From Aphrocallistes beatrix (Eukaryota; Porifera; Hexactinellida; Sceptrulophora; Aphrocallistidae): a stretch of DNA of 64,000 nucleotides. A program made the translations under genes and the position numbers. Of this stretch, positions 2,712 to 53,976 are shown one piece after another (position 1 is the stretch's first letter; every line of letters begins with the position of its first letter). Under the pieces are notes generated by a model. The model was not told where the DNA came from. It worked only from the letters and a program-made list of their open reading frames with translations, and searched no databases. The DNA is taken from the NCBI GenBank assembly GCA_963281255.1, contig OY725489.1, forward strand, positions 6,138,523 through 6,202,522. The letters are read 5' to 3'.

Positions 2712-3230
2712 AGATACCGCCCTCGAAAAATCCTTAGGTTTGGCTCGCAGCATGTGTTAAGAAGAGAGATAGATAAGATGTTAAGCGTGGACACGTAAAT
2801 CCTCTAAAAAATAATAACCCATGCCAAACCGCTTTTGGTTCTCATTTCTAGTTTTTGAGTTACTGCGTCTCAAAGTCGTTTTTCGTTTTTCGCTAGTGCA
2901 TCTGAACGGTTGACAATCCTTCAGTATGTAAATTTGTTTAACATACCATAGGAACTAATGCTTTCAAAATCGAATCATTGATAGTCTATCATATTGGCCA
3001 CCTCATAGGAACAAAAAAAGTTTACAATGACAAAATTGTAAATTTTATATTGATTTGAAAAAAATGTGCCAAAAAACACGAAAAACATTCGTTTTTGGGT
3101 AAATCAAAAATAGTATCGCAAAGTTATAAGATATCGAAAATCGAGTGGTACTACGTTCATCGTGTAACGATATGAAACAACTCTTGAAATTTTCAACCCT
3201 CTATCTCAAACCATCTTTGACTTAAAATAT
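2712..3230 (-). mobile_element. Truncated piggyBac-like non-autonomous element (pB-1)
   Basis: TTAA at 2708-2711 is followed by AGATACCGCCCTCGAAAAA, one base from the family terminus GGATACCGCCCTCGAAAAA. The body aligns with the right halves (in reverse) of the full copies at 21992-23802 and 55758-57681. The copy breaks off near 3230 in the middle of the family sequence, where the satellite resumes. No ORF is present. Confidence 0.75.
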
Positions 3231-16358: not shown

Positions 16359-16558
16359 NNNNNNNNNNNNNNNNNNNNNNNNNNNNNNNNNNNNNNNNNN
16401 NNNNNNNNNNNNNNNNNNNNNNNNNNNNNNNNNNNNNNNNNNNNNNNNNNNNNNNNNNNNNNNNNNNNNNNNNNNNNNNNNNNNNNNNNNNNNNNNNNNN
16501 NNNNNNNNNNNNNNNNNNNNNNNNNNNNNNNNNNNNNNNNNNNNNNNNNNNNNNNNNN
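16359..16558. other. Assembly gap, exactly 200 N
   Basis: A run of 200 undetermined bases. The round number suggests a fixed-size placeholder, so the true distance between the flanks is unknown. ORF calls spanning it are meaningless. Confidence 1.
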
Positions 16559-16749
16559 AAACAAATTTTACTTTTCTTATAGTTGAGAAGGTTTTGGAAC
16601 ATTTTTATTCAGAAAAAATATTGATTATTTATAACATGTTATATTAACTTAATAAACTAGAACAATATAAATGATAATTAGTGGTAAACTATTCTATCTT
16701 TGAGATTTATATGATAGTATTTGTGTGATAAGGATATCTTAAATAATGC

Positions 16750-18217
16750 AAGCGCGCTTCACTTGCATGCGCTGCGCGGTTTGCGGACACTGTGTCCGCA
16801 GAGTCGCCCTGTGGGTGGCTGGATTTACTAAATCTAACCATAGCCTACTCTAATAATGCCTCACAGTAGACTGAAAATCATGGACTAGGGATGAAGTAGT
16901 AGCCGAATGGATGAATACACGATTAATTTAAAATCGTTAACCATGCAGAATAGGCATTAAGAATGTATTACCAGCATATATAAACATGGTATCAAAGTAC
17001 ATATATCCGTTGGAAAAATTTCGATTAGTCATCATATCATTGCGCAACAGGTCATTTTAAGCACGATTTTGCCAATTTTCTAGGCTGTTTTAACCCTATT
17101 TCTAAATGCTATTAAGGTGTGATTTTTATGTAGAACCAAGATTAGTACGAGTTGATTTGAAAATTTTAGAATTTTTCAATGGAATGTTGCTACATTCCTG
17201 CGTTGCTATGGTAAAGCGTTTTGGTCAGTTTGGGCCATTTCGTGCAAACTGTAGTAGCTAGATCTTCAAATTCGATCGTGTTTGGTAGGCAATGGCCTAC
17301 TTCCTATTAGGTGACAATACAACTTGAACTTCTAAATTCAACGGATTTTGAGTTATGGGTTGATTTTAAGAATGTGACCAAAACACTAAATTGTCGCATA
17401 ACTCTATAGTCTGTGAATTTAAAAGTTTAAATTGTATTATTACCTAATAGGAAGTAGCCAATTGCCTATCAAACACGATCAAATTTGAAGATCTAGCTAC
17501 TACAGTTTGCACGAAAAGGCCCAAACTGACCAAAATGCTTTACCATAGCAACGTAGGAATGTAACAACATTTCATTGAAAAATTCTAAATTTTTCAAATC
17601 AACTCGTACTAATCTTAGTTCTACACAAAGATTCTACCTTAATAACATTTAGAAGTTGGCTTAAAACAGCTTAGAAAATTGCCAAAATCGTGCTTAAAAT
17701 GACCTGTTGCGCAATGATATGATGACTAATCGAAATTTTGACAACGGATATATGTACTTTGATGCCATGTTTATATATGCTGGTAATACATTCTTAATGC
17801 CTATCCTACATGGTTGACGATTTTATGCTAATCGTGTATTAATCCATTCGGCTATTACCGCATCCTTGGTTATTTTACTGTGAGGCATTATTAGAGTAGG
17901 CTATGATCTAACCTATTTTAGGATTTTTTTCACTTTATATAAATATTGTACACAAAAGTTAACGAATAATAATTTATCATATTAATCCGAAAATACGTAT
18001 AATATTCTAAATCTATGCCACTGAAAATCCCATGTCAACCATTGGAAGCCAAACTCTAGCCTATTTTTATAATTTTTTACTTTATGTATCTAATGTAAAC
18101 AAATAATTTATCATACTGTACTGAAAATATGATATTCGAAAAATACACCCCTATAAAAACATATAACCCGTTGAAAACTAGTCTCTAGCATATTTTTCAA
18201 AATTCGTCAAATGGTGT
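16750..18217 (-). mobile_element. Hel-2 Helitron-like copy split by a foldback element
   Basis: The hairpin end AAGCGCGCTTCACTTGCATG with CGGACACTGTGTCCG and GAGTCGCCCTG is at 16750-16831. The sequence then resumes at 17913 and matches 36470-36790 of the better-preserved Hel-2 copy (for example around TCTCTAGCATATTTTTC). The opposite TC-type end is not found, so the copy is truncated near 18217. Confidence 0.55.
16839..17905. mobile_element. Foldback element, about 500-bp arms
   Basis: Almost the whole 1,067 bp folds on itself. The left arm (16839 to about 17345, starting CATAGCCTACTCTAATAATG) is the diverged reverse complement of the right arm (about 17410-17905, ending GAGTAGGCTATG). The spacer is about 60 bp and also partly self-complementary (GAGTTATG / CATAACTC). 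A 7-bp direct repeat ATCTAAC flanks it at 16832-16838 and 17906-17912. It has no coding capacity. The host is a Hel-2 copy. The superfamily could be Mutator-like or hAT-like foldback, and the sequence does not decide. Confidence 0.9.
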
Positions 18218-34828: not shown

Positions 34829-36375
34829 TCTCCGAATTGTTTCTGCATTTATCATGAGCAAATTCATTCTTTAGATTATCGTGAATTGAATTAAGTTGAA
34901 AACCCCATTAATAATAATAGAGAGTATGATAAAAACAATGATAAAATATGTTCAAAAATAATGCAGTTTGTTACATTGTGTAGCTTTTTTCAGAAAAAGT
35001 AAGTGAGATATATCTTAGCATTTGTACAATTAAACTATTCATATAATAAGCAACCTTGACTACTAGAAGTATAGTGAAAGTTCTATTATTGAACACAATA
35101 CATATTGAAACCATTAAATTTCTGCTATTTTAGGATATTTTGCCCTCGTTATCAGATTATGAGGTCAATATATTTTTAGATATTAGAGCATGAAAGTCCA
35201 TTCTAGTAGTCAAGTTTCCTTAGCCTATATATTGCATAATAAACACCTAAGAACAATGAATTGACTAACACATGAGTTAGTGGAGCATGCATAACTACGA
35301 AATCGACGGTATAGGAATTTAGTATTACGTAATTTAGAACCATGGCCCTAGAGAGGTAGAAATATGATATGGGAGCAAATTGATTGCACAATATTGATCT
35401 TAGACTACTCAGTGAAGTAACCTAATTATGAAATTGAAATATAACAAAAATAAATTCTAGGCCCTGGGTGGCCTTAAGCCTCAAATCGCATGTGCGTATG
35501 TGCGTTTACTTTCAATGCAATCTTATTACCAGAGTTTTCTGTATAATATATTAATTAGAAAAATTAATCTATGACTAATTTGAATGCGTATTATTCGAAT
35601 CTGTAATCCAATTAGCTATATCCCATACCGTTTAGAAGTAACCGTCTTCATGAATAGACACATTTTAGCATTATTTGTATGAGAAAGAAGTGTTGAAATA
35701 CTTTTGTCCGCTTAGTGTATATGGCCCAAATTGGTCCAAATTAGTTCAATATAATTTCCAATAACGAGTGAAGTACGACGTTCCATATTGATCATGACAA
35801 CTACTATACTAGGAGTTGCAGTAAAATATAAAATTTATTGCTTAATTTAGAAAGTTATGGATATGAGACTTTCCGTTTCAAGAATGTGTCCTTTTTTTGG
35901 CGACACCAGGTGGTACAAGTGGCTCTAAGTGTCGAAATATTAGCATTGAAATTCTAAAAATTGAAATTAATGTTTAGAACACCTTTAGGAATTAAATTTT
36001 TGATATAAAACAAAATACCCATAGGAAAGGCCAACCTTAAGCCCGTGTAGACTAGAAAAAAAAGAAAATTTGCCCCCAACTCTGCCGCCGCCGTCTCTAA
36101 TGCCCCCACCACCTCTCCTGCCTCCCTCCTTCTCAAGAATCTGTTTCTAGATTAAAAATAATTATATAATACGGAATAGCAAGCAAATAAATTTCTATCA
36201 ACCGAACACTCGTTTCTAATTGTTTTAATAAATAGTAACTTTCCAAGGAACCAAAGTGTTCGGATAACCGAGGATATGCAGTCTTGATCCAAGAGAAGTA
36301 TACTAATTAAAATTAGTGATGGGCTAAGAAAATATTTGAAATATTTTATATTTGTTCTGGCCTTATATTATATAC
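34829..36375. other. No gene recognised
   Basis: AT-rich sequence with a local purine/pyrimidine-biased segment at 36060-36130 (CCGCCGCCGTCTCTAATGCC region). The open frame 35954-36136 (minus), Ala/Glu-rich at its start, arises from that bias. Confidence 0.5.
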
Positions 36376-37142
36376 AAGCACGCTTCGCTTGCTTGCGTTC
36401 CACAGCAAGCAGACACTGCGTGTCCGCAGAGTCGCCCTGCGGGCGCATAGAGTCACTCAATCAAACATATTTTGGAATTGTTTTCCTTTAAATAAATATT
36501 GTAAACGAAGGTCGACGAATAATTTTTCATATGGATCCGAAAATATAATATTCAAAAGCTACAGCACTAAAATCCCATGTCAACCGTTGAAAGCAAGTTT
36601 CTAGCATATTTTTGAGATTTGTTTACTTTATGTATCTATTGTAAACAAAAGTAAACAAATAATTTATCATATAGATCTGAAAATATGAATTTCGAAATCT
36701 ACACCCCTGAAAACCCCAAGTCACCCGTTGGAAGCTAGTCTCTAGCATTACTTTCAAAATTCTTCAAATGGTGTGAAAATATGTATGCAGATAAATATGC
36801 AGATAATCTTTTTTATTGCCATACTCTATAATACATTTAAGATATCAAACATAAGTTGTAGCTTTGAAGTGTTAATAACAATGACGATCTATTGTAGTGT
36901 AGTACTTGTACAATGATTTCTATTGTGATAGTGTAGTCATTTATTTTGTATAGAATAGGTGCGAAAAATTGTTTCCCATTTTTTTGCAGAGATGTGAAAA
37001 TTTCGCTTAGATCTTAGAACTTAATCGTAGTCATATCATTTGACACCTACATGTCAATTTTAACACCTCTATGACTTCCCAATTCTTCAGTCAATTCGGA
37101 CAAACACACAAAAAAAAATCCTAGCATTTTAATATATAAGAT
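36376..37142 (-). mobile_element. Hel-2 Helitron-like copy, 767 bp
   Basis: The hairpin end AAGCACGCTTCGCTTGCTTG with CAGACACTGCGTGTCCGC and GAGTCGCCCTGCGGGCGC is at the left, and CCTAGCATTTTAATATATAAGAT at the right. On the minus strand the right end reads TCTTATATATTAAAATGC, a typical Helitron-like 5' terminus. The body aligns with 93-370 and 17913-18217. It is non-autonomous, with no ORF. Confidence 0.6.
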
Positions 37143-45829: not shown

Positions 45830-46260
45830 CTACCACCGACTCATCATGGAATTATGACGTCATTGTCACATTTTTAAAAGTTAAGCAACAGAGTTATTCG
45901 AGCATCACTCAGCCATTATAGGAGGAGATAAAAGGCTGAAATTTTAATAGAATCTGTATACTAACATACCTCACATATGATGCAACTATCATCAAAAAAT
46001 GACGACTCATCACTCTGTTATGACGTCATCATTACACATCAAAAATTTTAAAATTGGTCAATGTTCGGTATTATGGTACCATGAAACCGTTTCACGGTAT
46101 CTTAAATCGTTTTTAGTTGGTTTCACGGCTGTTTCACATTTGAAACTGTTTCACCATAGAATAATGTTGGGAATTGTTCAGTAACCACAATCACTGACTA
46201 GACTAGTGGAATAACTTGAATAAATTATGAGTAATCATTTATAAAACCTAGACAGACTAT

Positions 46261-48550
46261 TTGGATAGCATGACGTCTCAGAGAAGAAGGAATCAAGGTA
46301 AATTTGTATCCACACCAGTTGATGGTCATGATGTTTGGAAGTTATTCAAAATTCTTCTCCCTCCTGGGAGCCCAAAGTTAAAGAATATGGCCATTCTGTA
46401 TAGTAGTGGAGAACTTCCATGTGGTTTTGAGGAAAATCCCGAATCTTTTCTAGACCGTAATAAGCCTCCTATCAGGGCCCCCGTTGTAGTTTGTTATCGC
46501 TGTGGCATAAGCTTTTCCGGATTCCCAGGAAGGTGCAAGGAGCATCTTTTTGTGAAATGCAAAAAGAAGGAAAACTTGATTGCATACACACTTGATCAGC
46601 GAGAAATATTGCGGCAAGTAGAGGCTGAATATGACAGAGACCTTCCTGACACTCCTTCGAAAAAGAAACAGAGAATAGATGACGGCGTGAACGAATCAGA
46701 ATCGGTTAGTATTCCAAATAGTTATTGTATGAGCGAAAATCGTGTATCGAGGCTTCGATCTTATTTAGTTCGATTCGCACTGACTACTCATGCCGGAATT
46801 AACGCATTAGACAATTATTGGTTGGCTCAAGCTATGGAGACCTTGCGTCCAAAGTGTACGACTACAGCAGGTATCAGCGCATCTAATCTTACAACATCTC
46901 AAATTCCGAAAGAATTTGTCAAGGCAGAGAAAGTGCTAGGCCAAGCAATTGTAAATTCAGATTTCACAGTTATTGAGGTAGATGGGTGGGGACCTTCGAA
47001 GAAACGTTCATCCCTATGGTTTCAGTTACTTGGTCTTACAGTTCTTAACAATAATACTCCGGACTTAGGAGTATGCATGTATATGACGGGAGAAAAGGGT
47101 ATGGGTGCATCTATACATGATGCACAGAGGCATGCAGATTGTATATGGGATCTTTGGACCGATGCCAAGAAAAAGATTCAATTTACAGATTGTCATTTAC
47201 CAAAGCAAATTATGTCAGATGGTGAGCCTGTGATGCAACGAGCACTAGTTAACTTCGCTGAGAGATTTGAAATTGCTGAGAAATTTAGCATTTCGAAAGG
47301 AAGATGTCTAACACATCTTGCACATCTGTGTACACGAGACCTTGGCAAAGAAAGTACAGTGGGTAAACACGACAATAAACAACTGCGCAATTATCGTTGC
47401 TGCATTCAGACACAGTACTAAAGCCAGCGCTGCTCTAGAAGACTGCATTCGAGAACAAGCAAAAGCATCTAATGAGGTGATTTGTGCAAAGTTCTCACGC
47501 CTATTATATCGGATATGCAAACTAGAGGTATCTGTGTTGCTTGACATTTCGCCCTGAATTGGATTCAACTATCACTCATGTATGAGTGGGCTAAAGAGAA
47601 CTGCTCAATCAGGGATCATAATAAGTTGCTGAAACAAATTGTTATCAGATTTCAAGAACTTTTTTTCACAAAAGGAGTTCTTATTGGCATACTTGTTCTC
47701 TGGGACTTACAGAGGGTTTGGGATTATTAAGAACAGTGGTGGCTCAAATGGAGAACTAACTGTAGTCGCACGTCCTTATGTGCAGGAGGCCTGGAGATAT
47801 GTCGCTAAGCATATTATTAAGCTTAAAACTCTAGCCAACTTTGAAAAGTCATCAGAGCGTCTTCACCAAATGCTAAAGTGCATGGTAAACCAGACGAATC
47901 AAGAACCCATGTGGCGTGTATTGGGGACGTGTAATGATGTTCAAAGATGGAGGCAAATGGCGAAAAGTCAACCCATAGATGATGTCATCAACAAAGCTGC
48001 CCTGCACAGTTGTTCTCTCATTCCTAATAGTACAGAGTGTGAGAGAAGTTTCTCCAAATGTGGTTTGGCAAGTGCTGGCAACAAAGGGAAGAAAGGCACT
48101 AAAGTCATTCTCGCACACCATCAAATTGCCCAAGCTGCTGATATTTGGAAAGAAAATGAGATTGAAATTGCTACTCCAGGTTCAATCTCTGCTAGATTAC
48201 TGAGAAAGTCTACTCATAAACACGAGAGAGTGGCTTCATGGGAATACATGGTGCCTTTGGTAGATGAAGATTTGGTTGAAGCATTGTTAGATAGTCCTTG
48301 GATAGCTTCAGACACTTCTGACAGTGAAGCAGAAGAGGAACAAACTGATGATGTAGTAGTAGTTAGAAAATTATTGACGTTCAGAGTTAGTGAAGAGCAA
48401 TTTGCGGCTTGGAAGTGGCATAATAGTGCAGAAATGCCAGGCTTTTGGAATAAGTATTCTAATTGTAGTAGTGCTCAAGTTAATCCTGTAGATATCGGTA
48501 GTGTGATCGAGTATGAAGCTGACCTGTATGGAGGCGAACAAGACTGGTAG
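46261..48550 (+). pseudogene. hAT transposase, several frameshifts
   Basis: The first frame (46261-47421, to about residue 375) has a CX2C zinc-finger-like segment (VVCYRCGISFSGFPGRCKEH, a probable DNA-binding finger). It is followed by the catalytic-core start EVDGWGPSKKRSSLW with the first acidic residue. The path then shifts near 47385 (INNCAIIVAAFRHSTKAS), shifts again near 47555 (WIQLSLMYEWAKENC) and once more near 47650. It then follows 47639-48550. The C-terminal part has the hAT dimerisation signature IPNSTECERSFSKCGL and an acidic tail. Total length would be about 760 codons, in the usual hAT range. At least three frame changes make it inactive, although introns cannot be fully excluded. 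Confidence 0.85.
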
Positions 48551-48769
48551 TCGACTAGTGGAGAAGAAAGATCAGAGGGACACAAGACTAAATTTACAAA
48601 TTATTTTAGTTATTTCTATTATTCTTAGCTTCAATTATTTACTGGTAGTAAAAGCAGTATTTATAACCAACTTCAGTTTATTATTAACATATAATATCTA
48701 TATTAGACTAATTTTGTTCAACTGTATTATTACAACCGTGTTTTATTCGAAAACATGAAAAGTCGAACT

Positions 48770-49020
48770 ACCGTGAAACCACCTTGAAACCAATCACCGT
48801 GAAACCTTCGGTGAAACTACCTTGAAACCACGATGAAACGACCTTGAAACCCCGTGAAACCACCAAGAAACGACCTTGAAACCCCGTGAAACCACCAAGG
48901 AACGGTTTCACACTATAAATATCGCGAACAAGAAAATGACTGATAATGAAACGGTGAAACTGCCTTGAAACGACAGTGAAACGGTTTCAATATATGAATA
49001 CAGTGAAACATTGTTTCACG
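48770..49020. repeat. Subterminal GTGAAAC/CTTGAAAC repeats of the hAT element
   Basis: More than fifteen copies of a GTGAAACC or CTTGAAAC motif in the last 270 bp. Inverted copies (GTTTCAC) lie within the first 100 bp of the element (46080-46160). Short repeated motifs inside both ends are typical transposase-binding sites in hAT elements. Confidence 0.85.
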
Positions 49021-49128
49021 GTTTACCGTGATACCGAACACTGAAATTGGTGATTTTTTGAGTGATATAGATTTTAACACTACGATGGACATATTTATAG
49101 ATGCTATCTCCCTTATAATTAACCAATG

Positions 49129-52100
49129 CATGGCTTACTATATATACGGCTAGCTAAGCTAAGAATTGCCAAAATAATTTCCAGGCCATTGATTATATTC
49201 TGTTTGATCATGAATAATTGCAGATATCATTACAAATTCAAGTGTAAATAGGTTTTCACATACGACGGAAACATCTAGAATATTTTTGAGAATGATTTCT
49301 CACTAAATTTAACCACTATGACGCAGCAAAAAATAACATCCATATATGGTAATGTATTAATACAGTATATGGCACTAAGAACAAACATAGGAGTGAGTAG
49401 GAGTATCGTTTATAGATATGAGGAGTGATACATGAAAAGAATTAAACTGAAGATACTAATTATATAATATACTGTTGTAACACACTTAAGTTTGACATTT
49501 ACGCCGTATGTTTGATTTGAAAGCAGTAACTTGGTCCTTACGCCGAGTTTCACAGACCTGTTTCCTTAAGTTATTAAAGTAAATGTTGGAAACGCTTTTG
49601 TTAACTGATTCTTTTGACTTTTCTGAGTGATCTACACAAGCAAAGCTAGAATCCCAATCAACTGTTGCTATACTGAGTAGTGTCTGTGCTAGAGATTTCC
49701 AAGGAAATCTGGAATTTCTAATTTCTAATTCCGAAACTTCAAGCAAACAAAATGCACTCAATACATAGTGTTATAATGAAGTACAGGGTAGAGTCAAACC
49801 ACCTTGATTTAAGTTGCTAACATACTCCGACGAAATAAGATTGTTGTTCAAGGAGCTCAAACAGACAGGACAGTGGGTATGTTCTGATAGCTTCAAAGAT
49901 ATATACCCTGAGATGTAAACGACTACTTGTTGAGAAGCATCAGTCAGCTGTAAATGATCGTAATCATTAATGAGCATGTTCCTTGCAAAGTCATAGATTG
50001 ATGAATTATAATGAGCTGTAATTGATAAAGAAGTGATATCAATATTTCGAGAGATTTCAACTTGATTATTGACTCAGATCTGATCACCTCTTGCAAACTG
50101 ACCAAAAAGCGTCCACCACTCAGTTGCCGATAATGTGAAAACCTCCTCTCAAGTGGATCACTTTGCAAACGGCCAGTTAATACATAATCATAACCTTCTG
50201 TAAGTAGGTCAAGAGATAATTCAGAGATAGCATAGTTGGTCTGTATTAAGGCTTTGAAGGTTTGCATAGACAATCCAAATTTCCCCGAGTCCTGCCACGT
50301 CATTAGCCAATTACTGAATGAACAAAGGAATTCTGTTTTAGAGTCATTTGAAACTAAAGCATTACCTTGACGAAAAGGGTGAAAGCGTTCCTTCGAATTT
50401 ACAGAGAGCCACCAAATCCGAATTAGATTTAAAAATCCAGGAGTAACTTCCTCTTTAGGAAGGTATAAGCGAAGTGCACTTATAGTTGATTCGTGGAAAA
50501 TAGCAAGAGCTAAGGAAACAGATTGCTTGTTATTTCCTGGATGAAGTACAGAGTAGTTGATCTTATTTGCAGCACGGAGGTGTGCAGATAAGCTTAAGTC
50601 TTTCTCGTGAATTGTGTGAAAATGGGACCACCGTACAAATCCTGATTGAAAGGAAATATTGATATTTACAGAGGAAAAGTGGAAGGATGGAATATCAAAA
50701 AATTTATTTGCTACTAGATTATTCCTGATGTTTTTGATCAAGTGGCAGGTATCAAAGAGAAGATAAATATACTCATCAGGAAGGTAAGGGTTAATGATTT
50801 TGTAATCTTTGTCCTGAACTTTGTAATTCATTAAGAGACGAGTGTAAGCATTCACATTTGTTGAGTGGTTATCTGAAACGATTGCTCTGATTCTGAACCG
50901 AGATTGTGTGAGTAATAACAAACATTTATCCAGATTCCCATAAACGATATCACCCGAGTTTTTAACTAGAGGTACTGCTGAGATCACAAATGGGATCGAC
51001 TTCATGAGTGATACAACCATAAAGCATAATATACTTGTGTACGTTTCCAAATCAGGATTACAACCAACCAATGTATGCCCATTAAATTGAACTTGAGATT
51101 GGAGATGCATTTCATCAAGTAAAATTGCAACATCATTGCCAATAAAGTTTGAGTCACGTAGAAATTGAAGTGCATGGCAGTTGTCTATAGAAGGGGATTT
51201 AAGCTTTCGAAGTAGTGAGTTGCTTGGGAGAGGAATGTATTTCTTAAGAAAACTATAAGCGGAATTAGAAGTATATCTAAGCATTAGAGAGAAACGCAGA
51301 ACCTGTGATGAGTACTTCGGTCTACCGCGAGGACTGAAATAACAAAGTTGAATTAGCTCCTTTATAACATCGACATCATACTTTGAGTTAAAATTCCGAC
51401 AATAACTTGGTAAATTCTCAAGAGCATCTAAATGTGTTAGTTTGTGGTCAGTAGAATTTTGGATATAACTAGGAAGAGGAATCTGTGAATTTTCAAAACT
51501 TAGTTTAACTTGGAAGTCTGTGTAGATAGTAATACATTCCTTTACACTAGCAAGCCCAGAGCGAATAACAAGATGGTAAGCAGTTACGAAACTGTCTTCT
51601 ATGTGTAGTTTAAAACTGGCAAACTCAGGAGATTTTTCGAGGAAATCAACAACATCCTGAAACTTTTGAATTCTGTACTTTTCCTCGTAGATGGAAATTT
51701 GATCTGGTTGTAAGGCGCGGACTTTCGGTGGTGGACGTGAATTAGTAGGGATAATAGCCTGACTAAGAGCAGTTGAAGGTGGATGGATAGTAGGAATTGG
51801 TTTGATATTGTAATTCAATCTTGTGAAATTCTGGGGAGTAAGTTTCAGGAATTTATCATCAAAATGAAGCGAACAAATGAAAGAATTTTTAGTTATAACA
51901 AAGTCTGCAGGTCTGTTGAGAAAACGCAACCATTTACCAGACAATTCTTTGTCCTGAGGAAACTTGTAGCAAGGGTTATTAGGTCCATCCTTATAGTCAG
52001 AGTTGCAACCAACAACAGAACATTTATTAGGCATCAATAATGTGATTTCTAATTGAGAATTGAATGCTAAATAGTAAATTCTGCATAAGATAAGCTATAT

Positions 52101-52665
52101 ACTTGTACTATTAACCCTAAATTTATAACATAAGTTGTGAGAACCTTTAACTAGGTTAGTCATGGGGTTGTACGGATAATATATTATAGTAAAACGTAGA
52201 AAATAGGTTTCGAAATGTATTATGATTGTAAAAAGAATTTTATCTATTTATTCATTCATCAAATTCTTAAACTTGTGGTTTGATATCAACAAAATATAGA
52301 GCTAAGTCATAACGATGTTGTGTGATCATAAAACGATTTTGATGAGTATTTACTAGTTTATATTAAGTAGAATGTTAATAGAGATAAATTTTCTTGTTAA
52401 ATCGCAGGAAAAATTGAGCTAAAAGCATCTAAATTAGTACAATACCATATATGGATGTTATTTTTTGCTGCGTCATAGTGGTTAAATTTAGTGAGAAATC
52501 ATTCTCAAAAATATTCTAGATGTTTCCGTCGTATGTGAAAACCTATTTACACTTGAATTTGTAATGATATCTGCAATTATTCATGATCAAGCAGAATATA
52601 ATCAATGGCCTGGAAATTATTTTGGCAATTCTTTGCTTAGCTAGCCGTATATATAGTAAGCCATG
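49129..52665 (-). mobile_element. P/THAP9-like transposon with long inverted repeats
   Basis: Both ends start CATGGCTTACTATATATACG and form inverted repeats of about 230 bp (49129 to about 49360 and about 52433 to 52665) with only a few differences. The direct repeat ACCAATG flanks the element (49122-49128 and 52666-52672). The CATG start matches the terminal bases of P-type elements, and the encoded THAP-domain transposase confirms the superfamily. It is inserted in a Hel-1 copy. The near-identity of its arms indicates a recent insertion. Confidence 0.95.
49486..52037 (-). pseudogene. P-element/THAP9-like transposase, one frameshift and one stop
   Basis: The main frame (52037-49944, 697 residues) starts with a THAP zinc finger: C6, C11, C55 and H58 in the C-x4-C...C-x2-H pattern, with W36 conserved. 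Then follow P-type transposase blocks, ILLDEMHLQSQ, VGCNPDLETYTS, FDTCHLIKNIRNNL and LQSDPLERRFSHYRQLSGG. Near 50065 the path shifts by one base, and the C-terminal part continues through 49977-49771 (DASQQVVVYISGYISLKL and CPVCLSSL). It is interrupted by TAA at 49771-49773 and ends at 49486 (IYFNNLRKQVCETRRKDQ). Full length would be about 850 residues, close to known THAP9-type proteins. Only two lesions separate it from an open frame, so it is young. Start at ATG 52037 or 52034. Confidence 0.9.
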
Positions 52666-52756
52666 ACCAATGTGACCTCAGGCGACCGAAGGGAGCCTCC
52701 GGTGGACACTAAGTGTCCGCCGGAGGCTCCCTTCGGTCGCCTGAGGTCACATTGGT
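52666..52756. repeat. 91-bp palindrome joining two Hel-1 copies
   Basis: ACCAATGTGACCTCAGGCGA at the left reads back as the complement of the right end TCGCCTGAGGTCACATTGGT. The arms are about 45 bp with at most one mismatch and centre on GACACTAAGTGTC. Each arm is the Hel-1 GC-rich hairpin region, in opposite orientations. Either two copies recombined at this point or a hairpin was copied into an inverted dimer. Confidence 0.95.
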
Positions 52757-53976
52757 TAATTATAAGGGAGATAGCATCTATAAATATGTCCATCGTGGTG
52801 TTAAAATCGATATCACTCAAAAAATCACAAATTTTGTCAATTTAAAAAATTTTGATGTGTAATGATGACGTCATAACAGAGTGATGAGTCGTCATTTTTT
52901 TATGATAGTTGCATTATATGTGAGGTATGTTAGTATACAGATTCTACAGGGTGGCTCATAAGTTCTGATACAAGCTTCATTATGTATAAAATGATTTATA
53001 GTAAAACAATCTTAGCTATTATGGTCTTTAGAGATTCTAAATCGAATATTCTCGATGATTTTAGAAGACTTTTTCAGTCTAAGACCTGGAACTGTGTTTT
53101 GTGTGGTGACTTTTATGGGGGGGAAATGTGTCCTGGCACGCAGCGAAAATCGAGAATCAAGGTCGCTACTTCTGTAAAAAATGTCTTTATCATCGATGTC
53201 CTATGACGATTTAGCACCAGATACCTTTCATTCACCATGGAAATATTTAATAAATCCATTGAATTCATCATCAGAAACGAGAGAAAGATATTATTTTACG
53301 AGATCAAATTAGGTACATTTCGCAAAATCACCCAAAATTTCACTTTTTTCACATCTCCAAAAATCTGATCCAAATGGTTTTCAATATGTACTGATATAAA
53401 CATCCAATATTCCTACAAATTTAGAGTGTTCGAGGGAAATGTGAGAGCCAAAATTTCGTAGAACTAGAAGACTCTAGAAAGATCATTTGAAAAGCAGTGG
53501 GTCCTGATACCCGATTTTCGCTGAGTGCCAGGACACATTTTTTCTCCATAAAAATCACCATACAAAACACAGATCCAGGTGTTAGACTGGAAAAGTCTTA
53601 TATTCGATTTAGAATCTCTAAAGACCATAATAGCTAAGGTTGTTTGAGTATAAGAAATTTTATACCCAATAAGGTTGTCACAGAACTTGTGAGCCACCCT
53701 GTATTAAAATTTCAGCCTTCTATCTCCTATAATGGCTGAGTTATGCTCGAATAACTGTGTTGCTTAACTTTTAAAAATGTGACAATGACGTCATAATTCC
53801 ATGATGAGTCGACATTTTGCTCTGAGCTCAGAACTTACTGGAGCCATAGCCAAAAGACTCCCACATGCCAAAAATTAGCTTTCTATGACATGCAGTTTCT
53901 TCAATCAATTCGTTCGAGAGAGATATATGTGTGTATATATATATATACACATTAATCGAGTTTTAATAGTAAGGAT
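52711..53976 (-). mobile_element. Hel-1 copy, right member of the head-to-head pair
   Basis: Starts at the palindrome centre, lacks the outermost AAGCGCGCTTCGC terminus, follows the family to 52946, is interrupted by a MITE (52947-53701), and ends normally at AATAGTAAGGAT (53976) after a short (TA)n/(TG)n run. Confidence 0.7.
52947..53701. mobile_element. Foldback MITE, mariner type, 755 bp
   Basis: Both ends start CAGGGTGGCTCA and form arms of about 220 bp. TA flanks it (52945-52946 and 53702-53703), and the host Hel-1 sequence TTCTATTAAAATTTC is continuous in other copies. The two similar ORFs in opposite strands (52982-53206 plus and 53464-53697 minus, both containing FRDSKSNI) are the arms read outward and inward, not separate genes. 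An older coding origin of the arms is possible. Confidence 0.9.

Follow-up and report, generated by a model that had tools for sequence, protein, structure and literature searches.

The window analysed here is a stretch of 64,000 nucleotides from the genome of the glass sponge Aphrocallistes beatrix (contig OY725489.1; C2:6138523-6202522 in the genome search). Between positions 45837 and 53976 it contains two copies of a Helitron-like element, Hel-1, in opposite orientation. The copies lie tail-to-tail, with their 3' ends joined, and have a single hairpin, hairpin b, in common. The joint forms a palindrome of 91 bp (52666-52756), with arms of 45 nt that are 98% complementary and a spacer of 1 nt. 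Its predicted fold has an energy of -61.1 kcal/mol, compared with a mean of -14.2 kcal/mol for shuffled sequences (z = -19.6), and none of 200 shuffles equalled it. The common hairpin b, GGTGGACACTAAGTGTCCGCC, occupies 52701-52721 and is centred on 52711. The first seven base pairs of the palindrome (52666-52672) are the second copy of the target duplication of a P-like transposon, and the remainder is the joint of the Hel-1 copies.

The Hel-1 pieces were mapped with blast against a 551-bp consensus. The left copy, on the plus strand, covers consensus positions 165-518 in three pieces (45837-46056, 49044-49128 and 52666-52721) and lacks the first 164 bp at its 5' end. Its outer part spans 45837-46058, ending in the 8-bp target duplication of a hAT-like transposon (AAATTGGT), and it continues over 49044-49128, ending in the first copy of the P-like target duplication. 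The right copy, on the minus strand, covers consensus positions 518-1 in two pieces (52701-52946 and 53702-53975). Its inner part lies at 52712-52946 and its outer part at 53704-53975, extending to an intact 5' TC terminus (AGTAAGGA/T at 53975/53976; the slash marks the boundary of the element). Both copies stop at consensus position 518, where hairpin b ends, and neither has the 33-nt 3' tail (consensus 519-551). A tail string, AAGCGCGCTTCGC, searched with at most one mismatch, matches five times in the window, and none of these matches falls within 45837-53976. An earlier note, made from the letters of the window, had described two opposite Hel-1 copies with one hairpin inside the palindrome, both without the outermost terminus; this description is correct, except that it called the pair head-to-head.

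Transposons inserted into the pair

As the earlier note also held, three different DNA transposons, each with its own boundaries, lie within the pair, and their insertion postdates the joining of the Hel-1 copies. The first (46059-49043, plus strand) interrupts the left arm. It has the ends CAATGTTCGG and CCGAACACTG and is flanked by the 8-bp duplication at 46051-46058 and 49044-49051. Target duplications of 8 bp are typical of the hAT superfamily. The reading frame is split into two pieces of 386 and 303 amino acids (aa), and neither matches any Pfam family at an E-value of 0.1; we call the element hAT-like because it has the duplication and no detected transposase domain.

The second transposon (49129-52665, minus strand) is bounded by terminal inverted repeats of 233 bp, identical at 229 of 233 positions. 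An open reading frame on its minus strand (49944-52037) is open over 697 aa, and the product contains THAP, P-transposase helix-turn-helix, RNase H N-terminal and GTP-binding insertion domains (PF05485, 1.3e-10; PF21787, 6.5e-10; PF12017, 8.8e-06; PF21788, 1.1e-05; all pass the Pfam cut-offs). The combination of THAP and P-transposase domains is that of the P superfamily. The target duplication of P elements is 8 bp long, whereas here it is 7 bp (ACCAATG), so we call the element P-like. It was inserted 39 bp from the centre of the palindrome. The third element (52947-53701), TACAGGGTGGC...GCCACCCTGTA, is an inverted-repeat element in the right arm and is Tc1/mariner-like by its TA duplication only. 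We considered whether 45837-53811 could be one transposon with long terminal inverted repeats into which a palindrome was later inserted. This was rejected, as other loci show Hel-1 flanking the hairpin on both sides; the repeats and 7-bp duplication of the P-like element itself further rule it out.

The Hel-1 family

The genome searched comprises 100.5 Mb in 28 contigs (C-numbers); loci retrieved from it for reading carry L-numbers. The consensus, built from copies in the window and in the retrieved loci, starts with TCCTTACTATTAAAACTCG and ends with GAAGCGCGCTTG. For the analysis of the ends, 15 full monomers were chosen by the 5' motif TCCTTACTATTAA and the 3' motif GCGCTTG. All open with the 5' TC of TCCTTACTATTAA, a motif also used to select them; A precedes the TC in 14 of the 15, and T follows the CTTG end in all 15. 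The single monomer without a preceding A directly follows another copy, in a CTTG/TCC tandem junction. Hel-1 is thus inserted between A and T, with no target duplication. Its 3' region contains an imperfect hairpin a, the strong hairpin b and a short palindrome c at the extreme end. Hairpin b, the strongest, is a 21-nt palindrome at consensus 498-518 that stops 33 nt short of the 3' end. When two copies were folded as single-stranded DNA, a and b formed in both and c in one.

Canonical Helitrons have a 5' TC, a 3' CTRR and a palindrome of 16-20 nt about 11 nt before the 3' end, and insert between A and T without duplication (PMC4067079, PMC4778049; comparisons with published systems, here and below, draw on excerpts of the cited papers). 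Like canonical Helitrons such as Helraiser and Helibat, Hel-1 has a 5' TC, A/T insertion without duplication, GC-rich 3' hairpins and, in two loci, precise head-to-tail junctions. Unlike them, it ends in CTTG rather than CTRR, and its strongest hairpin lies 33 nt rather than about 11 nt from the end, with no 16-20 nt palindrome at the canonical spacing. Because of these two differences at the 3' end we call it Helitron-like. It was compared with them as a non-autonomous element, and it behaves as a Helitron.

The head-to-tail junctions, at L008:1552-1553 and L017:1589-1590, are perfect (CTTG/TCC, with zero host bases between the copies) and resemble the circle junctions described for Helraiser (PMC4778049). 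Hel-1 also has a TA repeat of its own (consensus about 25-57), into which other Hel-1 copies have inserted, in inverted orientation in L027, L029 and L040. A wide hairpin-b pattern matches 1,933 places in the genome, mostly monomers among the matches listed.

Recurrence of the joint in the genome

For the dimer search, the wide pattern was replaced by a stricter one, centred on b with the 5' arms outward, which matches 23 places (0 in the control). Eighteen of these were read, all but C8:3566919, C11:4713482, C13:1132391, C14:3084700 and C16:2168422. Loose local alignment of the arms ran into unrelated sequence, and blast against the consensus was used instead. Nine of the 18 are dimers: the window locus, L010, L011, L012, L013, L014, L038, L053 and L054. 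In all nine, the arms meet at the same 21-nt hairpin b; both reach b and then stop. The remaining nine (L039-L043 and L049-L052) are mutated monomers or other joints and were not counted. In L051 (1330-1935), the left arm reaches b and is followed by an inverted Hel-1 that begins at consensus 399 beside a 6-nt remnant; although not counted, L051 is possibly a further dimer, the tenth, that was cut later next to the joint. In L052 (1009-1824), a Hel-1 cut at the end of b is followed by a second in the same orientation from consensus 65, so that the joint is at b without being of the inverted type.

As pattern matches only, a second subfamily gives one dimer place, and centres at hairpin a give 22 places with arms outward and one with tails outward. 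The c-centred form of the dimer, in which the 10-bp palindrome would be common, was found at 0 places in the one register searched (centre AAGCGCGCTT).

The 13-mer GACACTAAGTGTC, which the earlier note had offered as the mark of such dimers, is no more than the middle of hairpin b in ordinary copies, with 70 exact places in the genome and 4 in the control. The eight loci retrieved with it (L001-L008) look like single 3' ends and not dimers; two of the 70 places are dimers read here (the window locus and C12:1918809, that is L010), and the others besides L001-L008 are unsorted. The search that the note proposed, for inverted dimers with the same centre, does reveal a recurrent centre. The note would have taken recurrence at the same nucleotide as support for a replication mechanism, but this test does not tell the mechanisms apart: the same centre results from any process in which the 21-nt palindromic b serves as a short homology. 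In the literature searched on Helitrons and transposon palindromes, as far as it was accessible in excerpt, we found no description of hairpin-centred inverted Helitron dimers.

Relatedness of the arms

Identity between the arms was measured over consensus 166-497, with 51 Hel-1 monomers as the reference (mean identity 0.884, standard deviation 0.046). It is 0.970 for the window locus, 0.976 for L054, 0.924 for L010, 0.913 for L011, 0.843 for L012, 0.895 for L013, 0.806 for L014, 0.841 for L038 and 0.813 for L053. Seven of the nine dimers have arms whose identity (0.806-0.924) is unremarkable for Hel-1; 31-74% of arm-monomer pairs match or exceed it. A tree of arms and monomers was calculated from 68 of the 69 sequences. 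The one omitted, as too short, was the right arm of L014, and the L014 pair therefore has no position in the tree. For four of the seven dimers with ordinary arms, the common ancestor of the two arms spans 45 to 68 of the 68 leaves. Most of these dimers thus join two different Hel-1 copies, their arms being no closer than ordinary members of the family.

This relatedness bears on the possibility that a single copy underwent snap-back or template switching, in which synthesis, during rolling-circle or host replication, would fold back at b and copy the same element in reverse. The 97.0% identity of the window arms is as such a process would leave them, and the right Hel-1 of L049 has at 1490-1544 what looks like a true local template switch: b continues into upstream sequence copied in inverted orientation, after which the normal tail resumes. 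Such a process may also act at b. The same 33-nt centre is carried by C16:2168422. A template switch within one rolling-circle product, which the earlier note had suggested, predicts sister arms, and these are absent in seven of the nine dimers. Even at the window locus the arms are not exclusive sisters but group with one monomer, L020, in one sublineage, and 2% of monomer pairs are as close as they are. Two sites were flagged as common to both arms and rare elsewhere (387 and 424). The former, the sole substitution of both arms absent from the monomers, falls at an alignment shift, and the latter is also present in L020; furthermore, 219G occurs in the left arm and L020 but not in the right arm. 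Snap-back during host replication would be expected to copy the flank as well, and the flanks of L011, judged by eye, do not look like inverted copies of one another. We regard a single-copy origin as unlikely.

Chimeras are well known to form at hairpins and inverted repeats, so that an artefact of assembly or amplification at the strong hairpin also has to be weighed. It is hardly credible here: the nine dimers are at different places, seven have diverged arms, and the window pair holds three later insertions with target duplications.

A deletion between hairpins

Loci L027 (C13) and L029 (C11) are paralogous, with L027:1-2090 corresponding to L029:1-2103 at 99.0% identity. L029 is intact: a Hel-1 copy B is nested, inverted, in the TA repeat of a copy A, with hairpin b of B at 2083-2103 and that of A at 3017-3037. 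In L027, the tail of A directly follows the B side of b, and the stretch from b to b (about 0.93 kb) is gone. The right flank of Hel-1 A was located at C13:954459, C11:3089813 and C7:4262730; that at C11 lies 14 nt past the point where L029 stops, the spacing needed if the A tail is intact. The distance from the first hairpin to the flank is 623 in C13, 1570 in C11 and, by coordinates only, 1564 in C7, so that of the three paralogous places C13 alone lacks 0.93-0.95 kb (C7 again by coordinates only). The paralogues show a local b-to-b deletion of the mirror-image type, with two tails around one b and both flanks kept.

Palindromes with this tails-outward form match at 109 places (0 in the control; one, L027, was read): 5 exactly, 15 with one mismatch and 89 with two, the last by subtraction from the matches listed. 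The L027 product has a 5' TC end as well as a 3' end, and some of the other 108 places may be copies of such a short mobile form. Hairpin loops in L027 are TTT (1501-1521) and then TTC (2070-2090); in L029 they are TTC (1501-1521), TTT (2083-2103) and GAA, the reverse complement of TTC (3017-3037).

Among the retrieved loci, tail-to-tail pairs that keep both tails are L043 (53-bp gap) and L049 (292-bp gap), and nested or head-to-head pairs that keep both are L029, L040 and L015; all five are possible deletion precursors. The retrieved loci contain 76 3' ends, overlapping loci such as L044 and L045 being counted twice. Neighbours in minus-then-plus order number 11, several of them fragments, against two both-tailed tail-to-tail pairs, an excess that agrees with that of tails-outward products.

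L049 contains an inverted-repeat element (590-1192 and 1423-2050) with one Hel-1 per arm and inverted flanks, AAGTTAGGCCAGTTTGTA; this flank is common to L054, and the two loci are 93-96% alike in the matched pieces. A before-and-after relation between them is only suggestive; as a direct pair for the type with two 5' arms they were rejected, since the left-copy sequence next to b differs (CTCTGG in L049, CTGCGG in L054).

Mechanism of dimer formation

We consider it probable, with some reserve, that the dimers arise by short-homology deletion between the hairpins b of two neighbouring inverted Hel-1 copies. Because b is palindromic, it reads identically in both copies, so that two inverted neighbours possess a pair of direct repeats. 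Loss of the DNA from one b to the other would leave a single b; annealing, end-joining or replication slippage could each accomplish this, perhaps aided by pairing of the inverted bodies. A tail-to-tail start would yield one b flanked by two 5' arms, without either tail, the structure at the window locus, which we infer to have formed in this way, and a head-to-head or nested start would yield two tails around one b, the mirror-image case observed in L027/L029. Two different copies would have been joined, rather than one replicated, since seven of the nine dimers have arms of ordinary identity. The zero count of c-centred places, for a palindrome of only 10 bp and in one register, also counts in favour of deletion. 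Palindrome-mediated recombination, the earlier note's other suggestion, comes close to the plain deletion between hairpins seen in L027/L029; replication is the less likely origin.

Two other routes would also join different copies. In the first, two single-stranded Hel-1 intermediates would anneal through the self-complementary b and prime each other, and the dimer would insert at one AT. Such cross-priming accounts for the unrelated arms and for L011, in which both arms reach the exact 5' TC and are flanked as A/TC...GA/T. For Helraiser, new 3' ends are reported to arise by premature truncation once the palindrome or right end is deleted, which also counts for cross-priming (PMC4778049). However, it predicts neither the tails-outward palindromes nor the b-to-b deletion in L027; A/TC at both ends is equally expected from two independent insertions, and only L011 among the nine dimers has both 5' ends intact. 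We find cross-priming improbable, and doubt in the same measure that dimers with two outward 5' ends are transposition products formed via paired 3' hairpins. If they were, the hairpin, regarded as a stop signal, would double as a dimerisation site. In the second route, hairpins or cruciforms in two copies in separate places would be cleaved and the 5' arms joined in a chromosomal rearrangement. This would be expected to join different copies exactly at the hairpin as well, but the sole paralogue case is a local deletion with both flanks kept, making such a rearrangement very improbable.

Several observations weigh against deletion between hairpins. At the window locus, 99% of arm-monomer pairs are less alike than the two arms, whose common ancestor in the tree has just 3 of the 68 leaves beneath it, a picture that also fits a single source copy; an undeleted paralogue of the locus was not found, no search aimed at one having been made. 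In L053, the common ancestor of the arms covers only 6 of 68 leaves (support 0.876), and in L013 only 4 (support 0.16). The arms of L054 are exclusive sisters, though the locus has the look of a copied inverted-repeat element (see L049). The TTC loop at the L027 joint is not an exact match to either loop of the L029 pair (B has TTT and A has GAA); such loops may undergo flipping or rapid change. Centres at hairpin a have a bias towards arms outward (22 to 1) opposite to that at b (9 dimers against 109 pattern places), for which simple deletion gives no explanation; possible sources of the a centres are a subfamily whose hairpin a is perfect or a single copy that has spread. In yeast, deletion is effective only with an inverted repeat of at least 800 bp (PMC3748122), and the Hel-1 bodies are about 0.5 kb long. 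Finally, the tail-to-tail case places these bodies outside the direct repeats.

Other features of the window

Hel-1-like 3' tails without a match to the Hel-1 body lie at 16749-16823 and 36375-36456 (78-81% identity); they probably belong to a second Helitron-like family with a related 3' end. The first adjoins an inverted repeat of 483 nt at 16884-17870 (21-nt spacer, 89% complementary). A run of 200 N at 16359-16558 is a gap or a masked stretch.

Discussion

Rather than a new type of element, the dimers described here look like a scar that recurs in a Helitron-like family. One of the closest parallels comes from yeast, where deletion between short direct repeats is promoted by inverted repeats lying between them: a cassette that contains an inverted repeat and is bordered by direct repeats of 25 bp is cut out and a single repeat stays behind (PMC3748122), which counts for the deletion model. 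As in that cassette, short direct repeats (21 bp in Hel-1) surround inverted repeats in L029, and one repeat stays. Unlike in the cassette, the direct repeats are the element's own palindromic hairpins, which inverted copies supply automatically; in the tail-to-tail arrangement, moreover, the inverted repeats are outside the direct repeats, and the bodies fall below the 800-bp minimum. In maize, two dissimilar Helitrons lie side by side, as in the Hel-1 dimers; they are joined head-to-tail at CTAG/TC (the abstract says head-to-head), and section 8 of that paper describes no common hairpin for them, unlike in Hel-1 (PMC2267711).

Because the hairpin is a ready-made direct repeat, no special enzyme would be required, and mobile elements with palindromic ends could form near-perfect palindromes wherever two copies lie inverted. 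Inverted Helitron pairs need not be replication products. The process also bears on the loss of element sequence in Helitron-rich genomes, and the 1,933 hairpin-b pattern places make the rates of dimer formation and deletion measurable in this genome.

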